IMG/VR virus record: IMGVR_UViG_3300033153_003192
Span: 1 to 33,693 of that record
Length of the DNA stretch: 33,693 bases
From: a virus
Strand: one strand, 5' to 3'
Position 1 is the stretch's first letter; each line of letters begins with the position of its first letter. The notes beneath the pieces were generated by a model that worked only from the letters and a program-made list of their open reading frames with translations, was not told the DNA's origin and made no database searches. A program made the translations under genes and the position numbers. Below, in pieces: positions 10,217-18,651 of this stretch.

Positions 10217-10294
10217 ATGAAAACTAAAAAGCTCAAAGGTGTAAAACCTTTCAAACGTAGAAGTTATAAAATGAATCGAAAAGGACGGAAATAA
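10217..10294 (+). CDS. 25-aa highly basic micropeptide
   Basis: ATG one base after the previous stop; its TAA overlaps the next ATG (TAATG). Twelve of 25 residues are Lys or Arg (PFKRRSYKMNRKGRK at the end). It could bind RNA/DNA. Coding status rests on gene packing only. Confidence 0.42.
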   Translation: MKTKKLKGVKPFKRRSYKMNRKGRK

Positions 10295-10671
10295 TGAGTA
10301 AAAAATTAGCAGTAGCAAACGGAAGCTACACAAAAGACGGGCAAGAAAAAACAAGATGGGTAAATGTCGGAGTTATTTTAGAGAAAAATGGCAAAGAGTT
10401 TGCATTAATTGATCCAACAATCAACTTTGCAGCATTTCCAAGAGAGCAAGGCAAAGATATGGTGATGGTCGGGGTTTTTGATGATGCTAACCAAAACAAT
10501 CAGCAAGGCGGTAATAATAATTATCAGCAACAAGCACCTCAACAAAATCAACAGCAACAACAGCACCCTCAGGGCTACAACCAAACCCAGAGTTATCAAC
10601 AGCCAGTTCAAGAGTATAAAAACGCTCAAGGTCAGTTGACAGATGTTAATGGTAATATTTTACCACAGTAG
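10294..10671 (+). CDS. Possible single-strand DNA-binding protein with Q-rich tail
   Basis: 125 residues. The first roughly 70 form a compact beta-rich domain (KLAVANGSYTKDGQEKTRWV, VGVILEKNGKEFALIDPTIN, FAAFP) that resembles small OB-fold-like phage proteins annotated as SSB. The next roughly 40 residues are almost pure Gln/Asn/Pro, a disordered linker like those of SSBs, and the tip is QLTDVNGNILPQ. The usual acidic DDxPF tip is absent, so partner binding would differ. Context (Erf, Gp157-like, DUF1367) fits a recombination SSB. The family call is tentative; a structure search would decide. Confidence 0.45.
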   Translation: MSKKLAVANGSYTKDGQEKTRWVNVGVILEKNGKEFALIDPTINFAAFPREQGKDMVMVGVFDDANQNNQQGGNNNYQQQAPQQNQQQQQHPQGYNQTQSYQQPVQEYKNAQGQLTDVNGNILPQ

Positions 10672-10799: not shown

Positions 10800-11073
10800 A
10801 GAAAAAGAGATAGAATTTAACATATTTATTTCTGAATTTTTAGGACAAGAACTAAGTGCGTTTGATTTAGCTAAAGAAGCATTTATCTATTTTGATAATC
10901 AGGCTTGTAAGCAACCGCTGAAAAAAGATATAGAAATTGCAAAACTTGAGGGAATGTTAGAAGCTATGAAAAAAGAAGTTTTTAGACTTCATCCAGATGA
11001 TTGTAACTGCATGACTTGTGAGGAGGCTAAAGATGCTATAATACGGAATAAAAGGATACAAAGTGAAATGTAA
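10789..11073 (+). CDS. 94-aa protein, function unknown
   Basis: The ATG at 10789 is preferred over 10780 because GGAG at 10776-10779 has workable spacing only for the former. Helical, acidic protein with a hydrophobic centre (FISEFLGQELSAFDLAKEAF) and a Cys cluster near the end (DDCNCMTCEEA) that could bind a metal. Its end overlaps the following zinc peptide in another frame. No recognised domain. Confidence 0.58.
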   Translation: MANKEKEIEFNIFISEFLGQELSAFDLAKEAFIYFDNQACKQPLKKDIEIAKLEGMLEAMKKEVFRLHPDDCNCMTCEEAKDAIIRNKRIQSEM

Positions 11074-11387: not shown

Positions 11388-11404
11388 TTATGATATAATT
11401 GTTA
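11388..11404 (+). promoter_or_regulatory. Promoter candidate for the ParB-like/PAPS-reductase-like operon
   Basis: TTATGATATAAT (extended -10 TGA + TATAAT at 11394-11399) followed by TTGTTA. It resembles the two leftward late promoters (TTATGGTATAAT). No clear -35; that position is taken by the 3' arm of the 13-bp stem. A start near 11406 gives a leader of about 130 nt to the ATG at 11536. Confidence 0.5.
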
Positions 11405-11418
11405 CTGAGTTTTTAAAC

Positions 11419-11491
11419 AAGAGTAGTGATAGGTCTTCCAACCGCCTCGCTCCTACTCTTTTTTAAGGACTTCTTGAGCGAAAGGTTGGAA
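11419..11491 (+). ncRNA. H-type pseudoknot in the ParB-like gene leader
   Basis: Stem 1 pairs AAGAGTAG (11419-11426) with CTACTCTT (11453-11460). Its loop holds TTCCAACC (11436-11443) and CGCTC (11448-11452), which pair downstream with GGTTGGAA (11484-11491) and GAGCG (11476-11480): 13 pairs with a 4x3 internal loop. Stem 2's 5' arm ends at 11452 and stem 1's 3' arm starts at 11453, so the stems can stack with no linker; loops are 9 and 15 nt. T's at 11459-11464 also make stem 1 a weak terminator-like hairpin, which would yield a short RNA instead. The ATG of the gene follows 44 bases later with no strong ribosome site. Confidence 0.55.
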
Positions 11492-11535: not shown

Positions 11536-12711
11536 ATGGAAAATACAAAAAAAGAAAGTGGTGCGGTAAAGCAGGCAATTATTGATATAAAAGTAATTTG
11601 CAAAAGGTTAGGCTTCTTAGAACTTGACGAAAAAATAGAAGCTATAAATGCAATAAGAGAAGAAATTCATAACATTAGTCCTTTTAAATCAGAGCCTGTT
11701 GATCTTATCAGATGGGTAAAAAACGATACTGTTGGAGCGAATGATTACAATCCAAACACAGTAGCACCTCCTGAAATGGAACTTCTAAGACTTTCTATCG
11801 CAAGTGATGGATTCACTCAACCGATTGTTACGTGGGCTAACTCCAAACAACACGAAAATGAAGTTATTGACGGTTTTCACAGGCATAGAGTTGGGAAAGA
11901 GTGCAAAGATATTCAATCAAGGATTCACGGGTATCTGCCGATTGTTGCTCTTAGTGAAGACAGAGAATCAAAGACCGACAGAATGGCATCTACTGTGAGA
12001 CACAATAGAGCCAGAGGTAAGCATAAAGTTGATGCAATGTCTGATATGGTAGTAGAATTGAAAAATAGAAACTGGTCAAATTCTAGAATTTGCCGTGAGC
12101 TTGGAATGGATGATGATGAGGTTTTAAGACTTTGTCAAATTACAGGGCTGCAAGATTTATTCAAAGACGATGATTTCTCCAAATCGTGGGATGTAGGAGA
12201 AAGTGAAGTATGTAATTTTGAGGCATTGACCGATGAAGTAACAGAGTTTGAAAGAGAGTTTTTGAACTTCAGAACAACAGTTAATACATCATACGACAGA
12301 ATAATGCACACTTATGATAAGTGGGAGTGTCACCAGAATGGATTCTTTGCTCAAAATGTAGAGGGAATGTCTAAAGAAGAGTGCGAAGAGGAGTTTGCAG
12401 ATTTATTGCGAAGTCCACACGATTTTGAATTAGCACTTCAGGGTGTCACGAAAGAATGGAAATTTTCTTGTGAGCATTATTTAACAAACAAAGCATCTAA
12501 TCGTATTGCGTGGCTTGGGCAAGCATCAGTATGTTATGCAAGAGGAATTCCTGCAAAGTTCACAGGCGGATGGTTCAAACTAACAAAAGAAGAGCAAAAT
12601 ATAGCTGATGAACTAGCATTAAAATATCTTAATCTTTGGTTAGATGAAAACGGTAAAGAAATGTTGAAGATGGAAATAGCAAAACCTGATAGACAAGTGG
12701 AGTTATACTAA
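11536..12711 (+). CDS. ParB/Srx-like nuclease-fold protein, IbrB-like
   Basis: 391 residues. After a helical N-terminus, a ParB-N/sulfiredoxin-fold domain spans about residues 55-165: NDYNPNTVAPPEMELLRLSI, IASDGFTQPIVTW, and the nucleotide-binding motif IDGFHRHRVGKE (111-122). A helix-turn-helix-like segment follows (about 172-205: NWSNSRICRELGMDDDEVLR). The C-terminal half is unassigned. It overlaps by one base with a PAPS-reductase-like gene. This pair is the IbrB/IbrA arrangement found in many phages and some pathogenic E. coli; its biochemical role is not settled. ParB-fold domains can bind ATP/CTP, and some act as kinases. A partition role is unlikely: no ParA, and the partner is fixed. 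The long structured leader suggests control at RNA level. Confidence 0.8.
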   Translation: MENTKKESGAVKQAIIDIKVICKRLGFLELDEKIEAINAIREEIHNISPFKSEPVDLIRWVKNDTVGANDYNPNTVAPPEMELLRLSIASDGFTQPIVTWANSKQHENEVIDGFHRHRVGKECKDIQSRIHGYLPIVALSEDRESKTDRMASTVRHNRARGKHKVDAMSDMVVELKNRNWSNSRICRELGMDDDEVLRLCQITGLQDLFKDDDFSKSWDVGESEVCNFEALTDEVTEFEREFLNFRTTVNTSYDRIMHTYDKWECHQNGFFAQNVEGMSKEECEEEFADLLRSPHDFELALQGVTKEWKFSCEHYLTNKASNRIAWLGQASVCYARGIPAKFTGGWFKLTKEEQNIADELALKYLNLWLDENGKEMLKMEIAKPDRQVELY

Positions 12712-13916
12712 TGAGAGTAAAAAAATATAAAAGAGAGAATGTCTTATCGGCTTCTTTAAAAAGAGTTAATAAGATATTTGACGACTTTGAAAACATTTAT
12801 ATATCGTTTAGTGGAGGTAAAGATAGTTCTGTTATGTCTCACTTAGTATTACAGGAAGCAAGAAAACGCAACAGAAAAGTAGGCTATTTAATAATTGACT
12901 TGGAAGCTCAATATGTAGACACTATCACTCATATAGAGTATATGATAGATGAGTATCAAGATGTTATTGATTTGCACTGGGTTTGTGTTCCTCTGCTGTT
13001 AAGAAATGCTTTAACTAACTATGAACCAAGATGGACTTGTTGGGATGAAGAAAAAAAAGATATTTGGGTTAGAGAAAAACCACCAATGGCAAAAGTTGCA
13101 GAAGACTATCCTTTCTTCGTTGATAAAATGGAGTTTGAAGAGTTTATGATTCTGTTTGGAGAGTGGTATGGTGGGGATAAAAAAACAGTTGCTCTTGTCG
13201 GCATTAGAGCAGATGAAAGTCTTCACAGATATAGAGCAATTACAGCGTATAAACACGGTTCAATGCACGATGATTTACATTGGACTTCTTTACAAGAAAA
13301 AAATCTATTTAATGCTTACCCGATATATGATTGGAAAACAGAGGATATATGGAGATTTCACGGCAAATACCCAAATTTAAAACATAATGAAATTTACGAC
13401 AAAATGAATATGGCTGGAGTAAAGTTATCACAGCAGCGATTATGCCAACCTTATGGAGATGATCAGCGACAAGGATTATGGTTATATCATATCTTGGAGC
13501 CTGAAACGTGGGGTAAAGTAATCAATAGAGTGAATGGTGCCAATAGTGGAGCATTATATATTAGAGAGACGGGGAATATGACAGGGTACAATAAAATATC
13601 TAAGCCAGAAGGGCATACTTGGGAGAGTTTTACAAATATGCTATTATCCACTTTGCCAAAACAAACATCTGATCACTATGTGAAAAGCTTTAAAAAGTTT
13701 ATAGTGTCTTGGCAAGATAGAGGCTATGTGAAGATACCAGACGAAGCACCACACGACTTAGAGGTAACACAGTGGGCACCATCTTGGAAAAGAATGGCAA
13801 AAACAATTCTAAGAAATGATTATTGGTGTAAAGGACTAGGGCAATCACAACCAAAATCTGATGCATACCAAAGGTTTAAAGATATGAAAAAAAGAAAGGA
13901 GGTAGGTATAAAATGA
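12711..13916 (+). CDS. PAPS reductase-like PP-loop protein (DUF3440/IbrA-like)
   Basis: 401 residues. N-terminal PP-loop ATPase motif ISFSGGKDSSV (31-41), then the family landmarks GIRADES (164-170), PIYDWKTEDIWRF (204-216) and a C-terminal DUF3440-like region (AGVKLSQQRLCQPYGDDQRQ at about 235-254, SWQDRGY, APSWKRMAKTILRNDYWCKG near the end). PP-loop enzymes adenylate a substrate; relatives include PAPS reductases and DndC of DNA phosphorothioation. Cysteines at about 110, 245 and near the C-terminus could hold sulfur or a cluster. It is translationally coupled to the ParB-like gene. A nucleic-acid or nucleotide thiolation/modification role is an inference; the known Ibr pair was named for a regulatory phenotype. 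Confidence 0.85.
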   Translation: MRVKKYKRENVLSASLKRVNKIFDDFENIYISFSGGKDSSVMSHLVLQEARKRNRKVGYLIIDLEAQYVDTITHIEYMIDEYQDVIDLHWVCVPLLLRNALTNYEPRWTCWDEEKKDIWVREKPPMAKVAEDYPFFVDKMEFEEFMILFGEWYGGDKKTVALVGIRADESLHRYRAITAYKHGSMHDDLHWTSLQEKNLFNAYPIYDWKTEDIWRFHGKYPNLKHNEIYDKMNMAGVKLSQQRLCQPYGDDQRQGLWLYHILEPETWGKVINRVNGANSGALYIRETGNMTGYNKISKPEGHTWESFTNMLLSTLPKQTSDHYVKSFKKFIVSWQDRGYVKIPDEAPHDLEVTQWAPSWKRMAKTILRNDYWCKGLGQSQPKSDAYQRFKDMKKRKEVGIK

Positions 13917-14980: not shown

Positions 14981-15357
14981 AACATAACCGATTAAGACCA
15001 AAGCCAAGCCAAAAAAACAAAAAAAAGATAACTAAAGAAGATAAAGATTATTTAGAATGGTTGCAAAATCAAGACTTTGTTTGTTTCGCTTGTGGTAAAC
15101 AAAACGGTATTGAATGGCATCACGTTAAAGAGTATAGCACGGATAGAAAAAATCACAAGAGATTAATCCCTCTTTGTGGTGATGAGTGTCACAGAAACGG
15201 ACAAGAGTTATCAGCACACGGAACACCGAAGAAGTTTAGAGAGGTCTATCCGGTTAAGGCTCAAAATGCTTTTGCTGATAGAATTTATAATTTTTACTTG
15301 AAACATTTAGATCAAGATGAAAGTGAACTTGTTATATTGGTTGAGGAGATGAAATAA
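14965..15357 (+). CDS. HNH nuclease, Ref/DUF968-like
   Basis: 130 residues. Zinc-HNH core: CFACG (about residues 40-44), EWHHVKEYSTDR (about 50-61, the HH of the motif), HKRLIPLCGDECHRNGQEL (about 64-82) and the trailing H of SAHG. This arrangement resembles the RecA-dependent nuclease Ref of phage P1 and DUF968 proteins of lambdoid nin regions. The Lys/Arg-rich N-terminus (residues 1-25) would grip DNA. The start overlaps the RusA end by 16 bases. It is the last gene before the terminator at 15411-15448. Exact family between Ref and DUF968 is not resolved by eye. Confidence 0.75.
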   Translation: MRTKIKHNRLRPKPSQKNKKKITKEDKDYLEWLQNQDFVCFACGKQNGIEWHHVKEYSTDRKNHKRLIPLCGDECHRNGQELSAHGTPKKFREVYPVKAQNAFADRIYNFYLKHLDQDESELVILVEEMK

Positions 15358-15372
15358 CACTTTATTCTAAAC

Positions 15373-15397
15373 CCCTTTACTTTTTAATCTAGTTGAG
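15373..15397 (+). repeat. 25-bp repeat, copy 1 (degenerate promoter?)
   Basis: Matches 23 of 25 bases of 15706-15730. In copy 2 the repeat supplies a TTTACT -35 and 17-base spacer in front of a perfect TATAAT; here the equivalent -10 position (15399-15404) reads CACAAA. Copy 1 therefore looks like a decayed promoter, or the repeat is a protein-binding site that only happens to overlap a promoter in copy 2. Confidence 0.6.
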
Positions 15398-15410
15398 ACA
15401 CAAACATTAT

Positions 15411-15448
15411 AACCGCCCCGTTGAACTTAACGAGGTGGTTGCTTTTTT
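15411..15448 (+). terminator. Intrinsic terminator after the HNH nuclease gene
   Basis: AACCGCCCCGTT (15411-15422), loop GAACTT, AACGAGGTGGTT (15429-15440) form a 12-position stem with one G-U and one mismatch, followed by GCTTTTTT. It is the best terminator in the window and closes the operon that ends at 15357. Confidence 0.78.
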
Positions 15449-15479: not shown

Positions 15480-15650
15480 TTGAAAAACGAAATAATCATA
15501 GAAACAGACAGCATTGTTTTTGTATGGAAGCCAGATTCAACGGGAATTGAAGAAATAATACTCCCAGAGATACCTTTAACTGCAATGGTTGAAGATAATG
15601 TTGCTTATAACGCAAAGATTATTCTAACTCCTATTGAAAAAAAAGAATAG
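15480..15650 (+). CDS. 56-aa protein with TTG start, function unknown
   Basis: TTG at 15480 follows AAAAGGATAAAAA, a good ribosome site; no ATG precedes residue 36. Beta-rich, acidic protein (NEIIIETDSIVFVWKPDSTG, later AYNAKIILTPIEKK). It stands alone between the terminator and the next promoter. A TATAAT at 15457-15462 is so close that the leader would be only about ten bases. Function unknown. Confidence 0.5.
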   Translation: MKNEIIIETDSIVFVWKPDSTGIEEIILPEIPLTAMVEDNVAYNAKIILTPIEKKE

Positions 15651-15666
15651 TTTAGATATAATTATT

Positions 15667-15705: not shown

Positions 15706-15737
15706 CCCTTTACTTTTTAATTTAGTTGGGGTATAAT
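15706..15737 (+). promoter_or_regulatory. Strong promoter for the GIY-YIG/replication operon (repeat copy 2)
   Basis: TTTACT (15709-15714), exactly 17 bases, TATAAT (15732-15737): the best sigma70-type promoter seen here. The first 25 bases repeat the sequence at 15373-15397. The start near 15744 gives a leader of about 160 nt, almost all of it able to fold, before the ATG at 15904. Confidence 0.8.
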
Positions 15738-15747
15738 AACAGTTCAA

Positions 15748-15840
15748 GGCGGAGAAAGACCGCCACATAAGCTTTTAGTAAGTAGCACTCCTCTTTGGTC
15801 AGACGGTGCTGCGTACTAAGTGCTTGAGGGAAGTCTGACC
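15748..15840 (+). ncRNA. Structured leader: hairpin plus H-type pseudoknot
   Basis: First a hairpin GGCGG/CCGCC (15748-15752/15760-15764, loop AGAAAGA). Then stem 1 pairs AGTAAGTAGCAC (15777-15788) with GTGCTGCGTACT (15806-15817): 11 of 12 positions, one G-U and one mismatch. Stem 2 pairs GGTCAGAC (15797-15804) with GTCTGACC (15833-15840), eight perfect pairs. The stems interlock as an H-type pseudoknot with loops of 8, 1 and 15 nt, nearly the same design as the RNA at 11419-11491. Both also carry CTTGAGnGAA in or at the end of the third loop. No known RNA class recognised. Confidence 0.58.
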
Positions 15841-15884
15841 GCAAACTCCCACATTAAACAATCATCACTTAAAATTAAACAGCG

Positions 15885-15900
15885 GTAACTTAAAGGTTAC
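15885..15900 (+). promoter_or_regulatory. Hairpin around the ribosome site of the GIY-YIG gene
   Basis: GTAAC (15885-15889) can pair with GTTAC (15896-15900), placing the AAAGG ribosome site partly in the 6-base loop and partly in the stem, four bases before the ATG. It could modulate initiation. Confidence 0.4.
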
Positions 15901-15903
15901 ACA

Positions 15904-16413
15904 ATGACAAACATAATATCTTTTGGAAAAAAAGAAGAACAAAAGCAGTTGTATTTTCAAATAGCAGATTGCTTTAAATCCTATAAAGAAACATACGAGG
16001 CAGATAAGGTTCAAGGACTTTACGCTATTTATAAAGAAGATATATGTCTTTATGTGGGACAATCTTCAAATCTGCCTAGCAGAATAGCAACCCACCTAAA
16101 AGGGAAATATAAAACCTGCGAAAAAATTGAAATTTTTGTAGATACTGAAGAGATGGGAAATCTGATTGCCTATGAAAAACAATTAATTCAAAAGCTCAAA
16201 CCTATCGAAAATGTTTTGGTTGATTTTTCAGAACAAATAGACATTGAATATAACCCTTGTTACGATAATGCTGAATTTATTTTAATAAACAGCAAAAATA
16301 ACTTAACAATGTTTTATGATTTTCACATAAATTTGTACACAGATGAATATTTATTAAAACATCTAAAGAGTGAGATTGAAAATGTTGAAAAGTTTAAAGA
16401 AGAGGAAAAATAA
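15904..16413 (+). CDS. GIY-YIG nuclease-like protein
   Basis: 169 residues with a GIY-YIG domain at about residues 36-105: GLYAIYKEDICLYVGQ (38-53, holding the two signature tyrosines), Arg60 in SNLPSRI, and Glu91 in AYEKQLIQKLKP, the residues expected in the active site. The C-terminal roughly 60 residues are a separate mixed domain of unknown type. Free-standing phage GIY-YIG proteins can be homing endonucleases, host-DNA-degrading enzymes or exclusion factors. Here it heads the replication operon behind a long structured leader, which argues for a regulated, possibly toxic activity. It overlaps the next gene by one base. Confidence 0.82.
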   Translation: MTNIISFGKKEEQKQLYFQIADCFKSYKETYEADKVQGLYAIYKEDICLYVGQSSNLPSRIATHLKGKYKTCEKIEIFVDTEEMGNLIAYEKQLIQKLKPIENVLVDFSEQIDIEYNPCYDNAEFILINSKNNLTMFYDFHINLYTDEYLLKHLKSEIENVEKFKEEEK

Positions 16414-17183
16414 TGAGTTTTTCCGATGAACAACTTTTAAACCTAGTTAATAATACAATTTTAACAAAATCAGAGTTTGAATTAAAAGATTTTACTGGAG
16501 GTGGTGTTCAAATTACTAGCACTCACAATCATAAAATTATTAAATATAAAATCTACCTTACTTTTGGATATGATGAAAAACGAAACAGTAGAAGCTATAA
16601 AGAAGACATAGATGAGGATATTTCTTTTATATGGCAAAAGGCAATACTACTAAAAGTTAAATCAATGCAAGTTCTTAAAACTGGCAGTTCATTATCAGAT
16701 TTGAATAAATTGATGAACACAGATAATAAGATAGAAGATAGTGATATAGAGATAATAGATAGTGATAAGGAGTGTAACGACATCATACTGACTTCGTTAC
16801 GAACTCCTAAAGAAAACAAATCACTAAAAGTTTTAACGGTTGAAAAATTAGCAGAGTATGGTAATATTAACATTGGTGCTTTTAATGAATGGGTAGACCA
16901 TAAAAAATATAAAACTATCTCGCCTATAACAAAACTTTTAAATATGTTTACTAAATATACACTACAGCAACAACAAGAAATGGTAGACAAAGCAATTATG
17001 AATGGGTGGAAAGGTTTAGTCGAGCCTAAGACACAAGCTCAACCACTTCAAAGCTTTAAACAGCAAGACAAACAAACAACAGATAATGCCATAGATGCTT
17101 TTTTAGATGCAAGAGAAAACGGCTTTGACTTACGAAATGTAAACAGCGAGACTGTACAAGATGCGGAGGTAATAGAGGGATGA
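16413..17183 (+). CDS. Replication-organiser-like protein
   Basis: 256 residues. The first 110 are unassigned beta/alpha sequence (KIIKYKIYLTFGYDEKRNSR and on). Around residues 160-205 the pattern AFNEWVDHKKYKTISPITKL, then QQQQEMVDKAIMNGWKGL, matches the C-terminal region of many phage O/gp18-type replication proteins ('feeW..yk........q..~id.aI.nGWkGl'). The tail is Gln/Asp rich and disordered. In P22 and lambda the O/gp18 protein binds an origin inside its own gene; an imperfect inverted repeat at 16769-16807 is noted separately. No helicase or primase motif is present, so the host replisome would be recruited. Confidence 0.6.
   Translation: MSFSDEQLLNLVNNTILTKSEFELKDFTGGGVQITSTHNHKIIKYKIYLTFGYDEKRNSRSYKEDIDEDISFIWQKAILLKVKSMQVLKTGSSLSDLNKLMNTDNKIEDSDIEIIDSDKECNDIILTSLRTPKENKSLKVLTVEKLAEYGNINIGAFNEWVDHKKYKTISPITKLLNMFTKYTLQQQQEMVDKAIMNGWKGLVEPKTQAQPLQSFKQQDKQTTDNAIDAFLDARENGFDLRNVNSETVQDAEVIEG
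16769..16807. other. Imperfect inverted repeat inside the replication gene, origin candidate
   Basis: GGAGTGTAACGA (16769-16780) and TCGTTACGAACTCC (16794-16807) are inverted apart from two extra bases. It lies in AT-rich sequence within the replication-organiser-like gene, where lambdoid phages keep their origin. No repeated iterons were found, so this is weak. Confidence 0.25.
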
Positions 17184-17377: not shown

Positions 17378-17913
17378 ATAGTCTATCAAGAAACGAACTA
17401 ATCAAAGCATTAGTCAAAGGACTCAAGCTTGACGATAACATCTTCAACTATCAATCAGTAGCAGAAGAAACAGAGATGATCAAAGATTGTGATTTTGTGG
17501 ACTTTTACAAAGCTATTATGAGAGAAAACACCTATGGGAACGGACTTCAAGCTATTATGAAAGTTGTTGATCAATTTAAACCTGCAAATGTTGATTTGGT
17601 TGAAGTTAAAGCTAAAGAGCTAATTGAAATGTGCCACGGGATCAATAAAAAAGTTTTCGATGATGCAAAAATGAGCGGAAGAACTTTTGACGACCAGATG
17701 GCTGGAACTGTTTTTAAAGGAATTAGTGATAGTGATATGGCGATTCTGAATCAAGTTAAGCCCTATACAGACCACAAACAGCTATTTGGTAACATAAATC
17801 TATACGCAACGAGTTTAGAGCAGTTGAGAGCGTTTAAAAATGCGGTGGAATATTCGCAAAGTTACTCAGGTGCTATCGAGAATAGCAGAGTTAAAAAATT
17901 AATTAGTCAGTAA
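17374..17913 (+). CDS. 179-aa protein in the replication operon, function unknown
   Basis: Mostly helical, soluble protein. Segments such as CDFVDFYKAIMRENTYGNGL (about 45-64) and the C-terminal PYTDHKQLFGNINLYATSLE followed by QLRAFKNAV give it a repeated helical look. No Walker motif, zinc finger or nuclease motif is visible, so it is not an obvious ATPase loader. Its coupling to the replication-organiser-like gene makes a replication accessory role the first guess, comparable to the place of P or gp12 in lambdoid phages, but nothing in the sequence confirms that. Confidence 0.6.
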   Translation: MNSLSRNELIKALVKGLKLDDNIFNYQSVAEETEMIKDCDFVDFYKAIMRENTYGNGLQAIMKVVDQFKPANVDLVEVKAKELIEMCHGINKKVFDDAKMSGRTFDDQMAGTVFKGISDSDMAILNQVKPYTDHKQLFGNINLYATSLEQLRAFKNAVEYSQSYSGAIENSRVKKLISQ

Positions 17914-17949
17914 AGAGATTAGTTATTAAATGATAAAGAGGTGAGTGAG

Positions 17950-18300
17950 ATGAGTAGAAGTAAAACAGATATTATAAATGCAATGTGTATGACGTTTAGA
18001 CACGACTATGGATTAATGGAAGAAAAAGAAAAAGCTTCATTATTTAGAAGTATGAAGCAAATTTTCGAGAATGATATTGAACGAGAATGTATGATGCAAT
18101 CTGATTTAGATGACTATGATGAAAGAGTGGATGAATTAGAAGAAGAGTTGTCCAAAGAAAAAGACTTACACGCTTTGACTAGAAACAGATTTAAAGAAGC
18201 TGAAGAGTATATAGAAAAACTCAAAAAAGATAGAGATTATTGGAAAAAATCTTTTAACAAACAAGTAGAGGCTTCAAGAAATAACACCTCAACAACGTAA
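17950..18300 (+). CDS. Coiled-coil protein, function unknown
   Basis: 116 residues from the ATG at 17950, for which GAGG at 17938-17941 is well spaced; a GTG nine bases upstream is less likely. The N-terminal 50 residues form a compact helical region with several Met; from about residue 55 on there is a long acidic then basic coiled coil (DDYDERVDELEEELSKEKDL). No family recognised. Confidence 0.6.
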   Translation: MSRSKTDIINAMCMTFRHDYGLMEEKEKASLFRSMKQIFENDIERECMMQSDLDDYDERVDELEEELSKEKDLHALTRNRFKEAEEYIEKLKKDRDYWKKSFNKQVEASRNNTSTT

Positions 18301-18331
18301 AAAACAAAGTCGGCTTAAAAAAGTCCAAAAG

Positions 18332-18394
18332 ATGAACAGATATAGAATAAAAGTTCATCAAGAGTATGTTAGATCACAGAGGAGTGAGGGATGA
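18332..18394 (+). CDS. 20-aa basic micropeptide
   Basis: ATG at 18332; its TGA overlaps the next ATG (ATGA). MNRYRIKVHQEYVRSQRSEG is soluble and basic. Support comes only from overlap with the next gene; the ribosome site is weak. Confidence 0.3.
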   Translation: MNRYRIKVHQEYVRSQRSEG

Positions 18395-18651
18395 AAAAAG
18401 AAGATATCATTAACAAAATGAATCATTTAGAGGAAACCTATGCAGACGAAGAAACGGACAGGCTATATAAGGCTTTGCCTGAATCAAGATATGAAGCAAT
18501 TGCGGATTTTATTATGGAGCATTTTGAATCAAAGACTTGTGAGAATTGTAAAAGTTTATCTTGGTGTGATATTTGGAAACTTGTAGAAGACGATTGTGAG
18601 CCAAATGATTTTTATTGTAAAGATTTTCAACAAAAGAGGAGCGAGAAATGA
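18391..18651 (+). CDS. Cys-rich 86-aa protein, likely zinc-binding
   Basis: N-terminal helical half (KKEDIINKMNHLEETYADEE), then CENCKSLSWCDIWKLVEDD and CEPNDFYCKDF (about residues 50-80). The C-x2-C, C, C, C spacing with a final 'fyCkdf' is common in small phage zinc proteins. AGGAGTGAGGG precedes the ATG. It overlaps the next gene by four bases. Precise role unknown. Confidence 0.62.
   Translation: MKKEDIINKMNHLEETYADEETDRLYKALPESRYEAIADFIMEHFESKTCENCKSLSWCDIWKLVEDDCEPNDFYCKDFQQKRSEK

Follow-up and report, generated by a model that had tools for sequence, protein, structure and literature searches.

The two leader RNAs described here look like members of an undescribed family of control RNAs, because related viruses keep the knot with almost entirely different letters. 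Both lie in the window, the whole stretch of viral DNA that was analysed (33,693 nucleotides), which carries P22-like head genes, and at least ten leaders of the same architecture were found in eight related P22-like phages by whole-genome scans and sequence hooks. The initial annotation had proposed a phage-encoded RNA family controlling two operons, and the family does extend beyond the genome of the window; that it controls these operons is plausible. In most cases a TATAAT-like promoter directly precedes the leader and an early gene, often one of the replication operon, directly follows it. The reading put forward here, tentatively and at somewhat less than an even chance, is that they are cis-acting 5' leaders in which the pseudoknot might serve as a translational operator of the first cistron.

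The pseudoknot of leader 2 (15769-15840, plus strand, as are all features below) lies directly 3' of a conserved promoter and 5' of the start codon of a GIY-YIG gene. The promoter TTTACT-17-TATAAT (15709-15737) matches the consensus in 10 of 12 positions and is followed by a hairpin GGCGG/CCGCC (15748-15764), both located where they had been annotated; the hairpin is an extra specific to the window and is absent in the phages G022, G023 and G026. The first stem had been described as 11 of 12 pairs (15777-15788/15806-15817), which is correct for the inner part of a longer stem, S1, of 20 positions, where the 5' strand (15769-15788) and the 3' strand (15806-15825) form 18 of 20 pairs. The second stem, S2, is a perfect helix of 8 bp, as claimed, between GGTCAGAC (15797-15804) and GTCTGACC (15833-15840). 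Since S1 extends outward to 20 positions, the last loop is reduced to 7 nt, GAGGGAA (15826-15832); the loops of 8, 1 and 15 nt given earlier are right when S1 is left unpaired at its outer 8 positions. A nearly G-free, unstructured linker with UUAAA repeats (15841-15880) leads to a conserved tail AGCGGTAACTTAAAGGTTACACA (15881-15903), which contains the Shine-Dalgarno sequence AAAGG and a small hairpin GTAAC/GTTAC. Just 5' of the leader 2 promoter, at 15634-15662, there is a further promoter-like site TTGAAA-17-TATAAT (11 of 12) followed by a hairpin GTCTAAT/ATTAGAC.

Leader 1 begins behind a -10 box TATAAT (11394-11399) with the 5' strand of S1 (11407-11426), followed by the 5' strand of S2 TTCCAACC (11436-11443), which may run on with TCGCTC (11447-11452), the 3' strand of S1 (11453-11472), kept in the phage G001 at 91% DNA identity, and the 3' strand of S2 GGTTGGAA (11484-11491). 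This pseudoknot (11407-11491) is real, and the loops of 9, 0 and 15 nt ascribed to it are valid if the second stem is taken as a composite of TTCCAACC+TCGCTC with GAGCGA+GGTTGGAA. The nearly identical design claimed for the two leaders holds for their architecture, with letters alike only among four leaders. The decamer CTTGAGnGAA, which had been taken as their shared mark, is ruled out as a family signature, because CTTGAGCGAA is altered to CACGAGAGCGAA in the close relative of leader 1 and two further copies are found outside the leaders (10945 and 23726).

Interlocking stems of this strength are rare in shuffled sequence. The best interlocking stems of leader 2 reach -41.1 kcal/mol, compared with a mean of -22.1 +/- 2.8 and a minimum of -33.9 in dinucleotide shuffles, and none of 300 shuffles was as good; the same was found for leader 1 (-39.3 kcal/mol, 0 of 300). 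When the whole window was scanned on both strands the two leaders were the top two matches, and the best single match reached -39.3 in 7 of 200 block-shuffled windows. A stricter descriptor gave two sites in the real window, both of them leaders, and six in total over the 200 block-shuffled windows. The pseudoknot structure is thereby confirmed as real at the level of computational modelling.

The wider family was found by structure as well as by sequence. A scan of approximately 2 Mb of P22-like loci gave L152 (from G026), with a tail homologous to that in the window and with S1 and S2 lacking sequence similarity. The conserved tail used as a sequence hook gave 13 contigs, five with a pseudoknot of -40 to -55 kcal/mol and eight at -19 to -24 kcal/mol, which were treated as chance matches, leaving a gap between -24 and -40 kcal/mol. 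G022a, G023, G024 and G025a were found by the tail without use of the pairing, while G026a came first from the scan and supplied part of the hook. In two of these five members nearly all letters of S1 and S2 are changed and the pairing is intact. The strict descriptor matched nine times in the eight phages, always in leaders, compared with six matches in 200 shuffled windows. The proposed family definition, with which the leaders agree, is an S1 of 14-23 nt, an S2 of 7-11 bp formed in the S1 loop, short loops 2 and 3, and a position behind a promoter and before an open reading frame. The structural descriptor (a stem of about 20 bp whose loop pairs immediately 3' of it) picks up members that escape sequence searches: BLAST of the leader against phage and plasmid collections gave no relatives, and the tail pattern gave only chance-like matches among genome contigs, with no Campylobacterota genome among them. 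Searches for related loci with the GIY-YIG protein found none, and those with ParB found one locus, without a leader. The leaders had no match among the Rfam 15 covariance models at the gathering score, nor at E up to 5, and no description of such a leader RNA was found in openly searchable papers. The leaders would work like a known kind of element but agree fully with no tested definition of a known family.

Pairing is retained where the letters are not. In ten leaders S1 is 90-95% and S2 100% paired within the leader, compared with 52% and 42% for combinations of strands from different types, the within-leader percentages being subject to the caveat that the scan itself selected its leaders for pairing. 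Covariation is weak within the four close leaders alone, where one pair is altered on both sides, 94% of positions are paired compared with 21-43% in slid controls, and S2 of leader 2 has a GC pair in three relatives at a position where the window has AU; the strong case lies between types. On the sense strand the oppositions comprise 24 G-U and 5 A-C, with the same caveat of selection for pairing, and this excess favours a transcribed RNA. It speaks against a single-stranded DNA structure with a role in replication (a primosome or origin hairpin, for example), which could be suspected because many leaders precede replication genes. However, the leaders sit between promoter and start codon and leader 1 precedes a non-replication gene, and a DNA structure is very improbable.

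Between types, S2 strands show no cross-pairing beyond six in a row, so that each leader type, as shown computationally, would pair only with itself. Such diversity would fit a specificity system of the kind known from P1/P7 C4 and P4 CI, which are phage leader RNAs with complementary elements, one of them near the ribosome site, and with specificity given by variable loops (PMC5320573). A released 3' strand of S2 would then pair in trans with the S2 5' strands or ribosome sites of related phages, and the diversity of S2 would mark exclusion groups. The tail GCGG can indeed pair with CCGC of the S2 3' end in six leaders. However, the complementarity in the leaders is mainly intramolecular, there is no sign of lysogeny (neither an integrase nor a lysogeny gene was seen among the proteins scanned), the C4 model RF01695 gave no match at the gathering score or at E up to 5, and the predicted access to the Shine-Dalgarno sequence does not respond, which leaves only a slim chance for this explanation. 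A switch in which the S2 CCGC pairs with the tail GCGG to open the Shine-Dalgarno sequence was rejected on the same unchanged prediction.

The replaced letters also bear on processive antitermination, where a nascent leader would bind RNA polymerase and terminators in the early operons would be read through. The put RNAs of HK022, which bind the zinc-binding domain of RNA polymerase and act in cis without a dedicated protein, consist of two stem-loops with sequence in common (PMC9378689). Like putL and putR, the two leaders of the window are structured RNAs behind two early phage promoters, and a terminator-like hairpin lies between the two operons (15412-15446). However, the stems of the leaders interlock instead of forming two adjacent stem-loops of conserved sequence, S1 and S2 have different letters from member to member, and there is no invariant loop motif, in contrast to the shared sequence of the put RNAs (PMC9378689). 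Antitermination of this kind is improbable.

Promoter, pseudoknot, linker and ribosome site form a cassette that stands before differing early genes, mostly in the replication operon. Leader 2 is followed by the GIY-YIG domain protein as first gene of its operon (15904-16413; PF01541, 1.6e-7) and by a replication initiation O-like protein (16413-17183; phrog_678, 3.2e-7) with a relative 3' of the G023 leader, and leader 1 is followed by a ParB/IbrB-like gene (11536-12711; phrog_2159, 2.6e-66, with IbrB matches). DnaB N-terminal-like and DUF6291 genes were found behind leaders of G021 and G026, a DUF6291-like gene in G022, zinc-ribbon-like and O-like genes in G023, an HTH-like gene in G024, and a short peptide followed by a replication-like gene in G025; the labels zinc-ribbon-like, HTH-like and replication-like (G001, G022-G025) were given by eye or synteny, without a family match. 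It is possible, though rather unlikely, that every phage holds several mutually orthogonal copies of one pseudoknot operator which have been swapped onto unrelated early genes and would form a regulon read by its shape by a single phage or host factor. The closest relatives of the G026 DnaB are mostly from Helicobacter phages, with one from a Sulfurimonas phage, and the hosts of the leader-bearing phages are therefore probably Campylobacterota. The ParB/IbrB-like gene is part of a pair at 11536-13916 together with an IbrA-like gene (DUF3440/PAPS reductase, with a weak DndC match), and G001 has other genes there.

The distance from S2 to the AUG is 61-65 nt in all six long leaders (the window and the five tail-hook members), and their linkers are nearly devoid of G (8 in 252 nt over the six). 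UUAAA is found four times in leader 2, and its enrichment is clear for the W type alone. In phage T4, the gene 32 operator has a pseudoknot about 60-67 nt 5' of the AUG, followed by A/U-rich sequence without structure that contains UUAA(A) repeats and reaches into the ribosome site (PMC3014915, PMC535899). It shares with the leaders an H-type pseudoknot 5' of a ribosome site and a phage replication context, and the long leaders resemble it in having some 60-70 nt of poorly structured A/U-rich RNA in between. On the other hand, the pseudoknot component in T4 is about 28 nt whereas S1 alone is 20 bp in the leaders, which also occur in several copies per phage and can have the Shine-Dalgarno sequence within S2, as in the short forms G022 14640 and G026 38072. 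The rpsO (S15) operator, named in PMC3014915, is by description also a pseudoknot at the ribosome site regulating translation, and differs from the leaders in belonging to a cellular ribosomal protein gene. The gene 32-like layout of the long form, together with an S2 over the Shine-Dalgarno sequence in the short forms, favours the view that the leader is a translational operator recognised by an RNA-binding protein. None of the first genes (GIY-YIG, DnaB-N-like, DUF6291, ParB and others) is known as ssb, and since the downstream genes differ among phages, the first product cannot in general act as a simple autoregulator.

In the predicted fold, the stem S1 of about 20 bp begins at the transcription start or a short way behind it, and its loop pairs with the sequence that immediately follows the stem to give the H-type pseudoknot. 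In the long form a phage or host protein binding RNA or single-stranded DNA might nucleate on the knot and, when in excess, spread over the linker and block initiation, while in the short form S2 itself would mask the Shine-Dalgarno sequence directly. S2 formation does not change the predicted Shine-Dalgarno accessibility in the six long leaders, so control there would depend on a bound factor or take some other route. With a loop 3 of 0-14 nt against an S1 of 20 bp, the full S1 and S2 probably cannot coexist on a rough estimate, and the outer part of S1 is therefore likely to open when S2 forms. One candidate for the bound factor, an ORF at 10294-10671 with relatives in G001 and G024, encodes 125 amino acids with a beta-rich N-terminus and a Q/N-rich tail; it was rejected as regulator because its beta-rich model (mean pLDDT 65) has no confident fold match and the protein is SSB-like in looks only. 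Binding by the small regulators of the phage itself is not supported.

The main rival is an element of the mRNA 5' end. S1 would protect the early transcript against degradation from its 5' end or serve as a site of RNase III processing, and S2 would do no more than lock the fold. In its favour, nearly every leader, irrespective of sequence, has an S1 of 20 positions containing one or two mismatches. S1 also begins within a few nucleotides of the expected transcription start in G022, G023 and G026, and the leader is portable before any gene. However, this explanation alone does not account for an S2 that is perfectly paired in every leader, the spacing of 61-65 nt or the overlap of S2 with the Shine-Dalgarno sequence, and it is considered unlikely. 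A pseudoknot beside the ribosome site is also a common riboswitch layout, and the 5' leader position would suit a small-molecule riboswitch. That possibility is the least probable of all, because no ligand-binding core is conserved across the types, the downstream genes are unrelated and there is no Rfam match.

As a translational operator, the leader family would probably govern when viral replication genes are translated. If this function is true, T4 gene 32 would be joined by a second case, unrelated to it and far more widely used, in which natural variation keeps only the fold. Shape-specific RNA recognition could then be tested cleanly, as could the way in which P22-like Campylobacterota phages control the timing of their replication genes.

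The closest phage, G001 (coat 98%, terminase 94%), has a version of leader 1, 91% identical, in which one mismatch has become a pair, the outermost G-U has become G-C and one pair is lost, while S2 keeps 7 pairs. The gene after the start codon is swapped, from the IbrB-like gene of the window to a 52-amino-acid zinc-ribbon-like protein. At leader 2 the RNA itself differs: the promoter segment 15706-15738 is identical in 33 of 33 positions in G001 and near-identical in G021, and behind it each of these phages carries a different RNA with its own interlocked stems. In G001 this is a structured non-coding sequence of about 560 nt (L177 8601-9160, corresponding to G001 16600-17159), for which no Rfam match was found. 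Within the window, a second copy of the promoter segment CCCTTTACTTTTTAATCTAGTTG (96%) is followed by the terminator-like hairpin ACCGCCCCGTT/AACGAGGTGGT and a T run (15373-15446), which looks like a duplicated module boundary. Four short blocks (11034-11057, 15301-15350, 17871-17936 and 18279-18396) are 93-100% identical in G001 and/or G021 with the genes between them swapped, and thus mark conserved boundaries within an early region of mosaic make-up.
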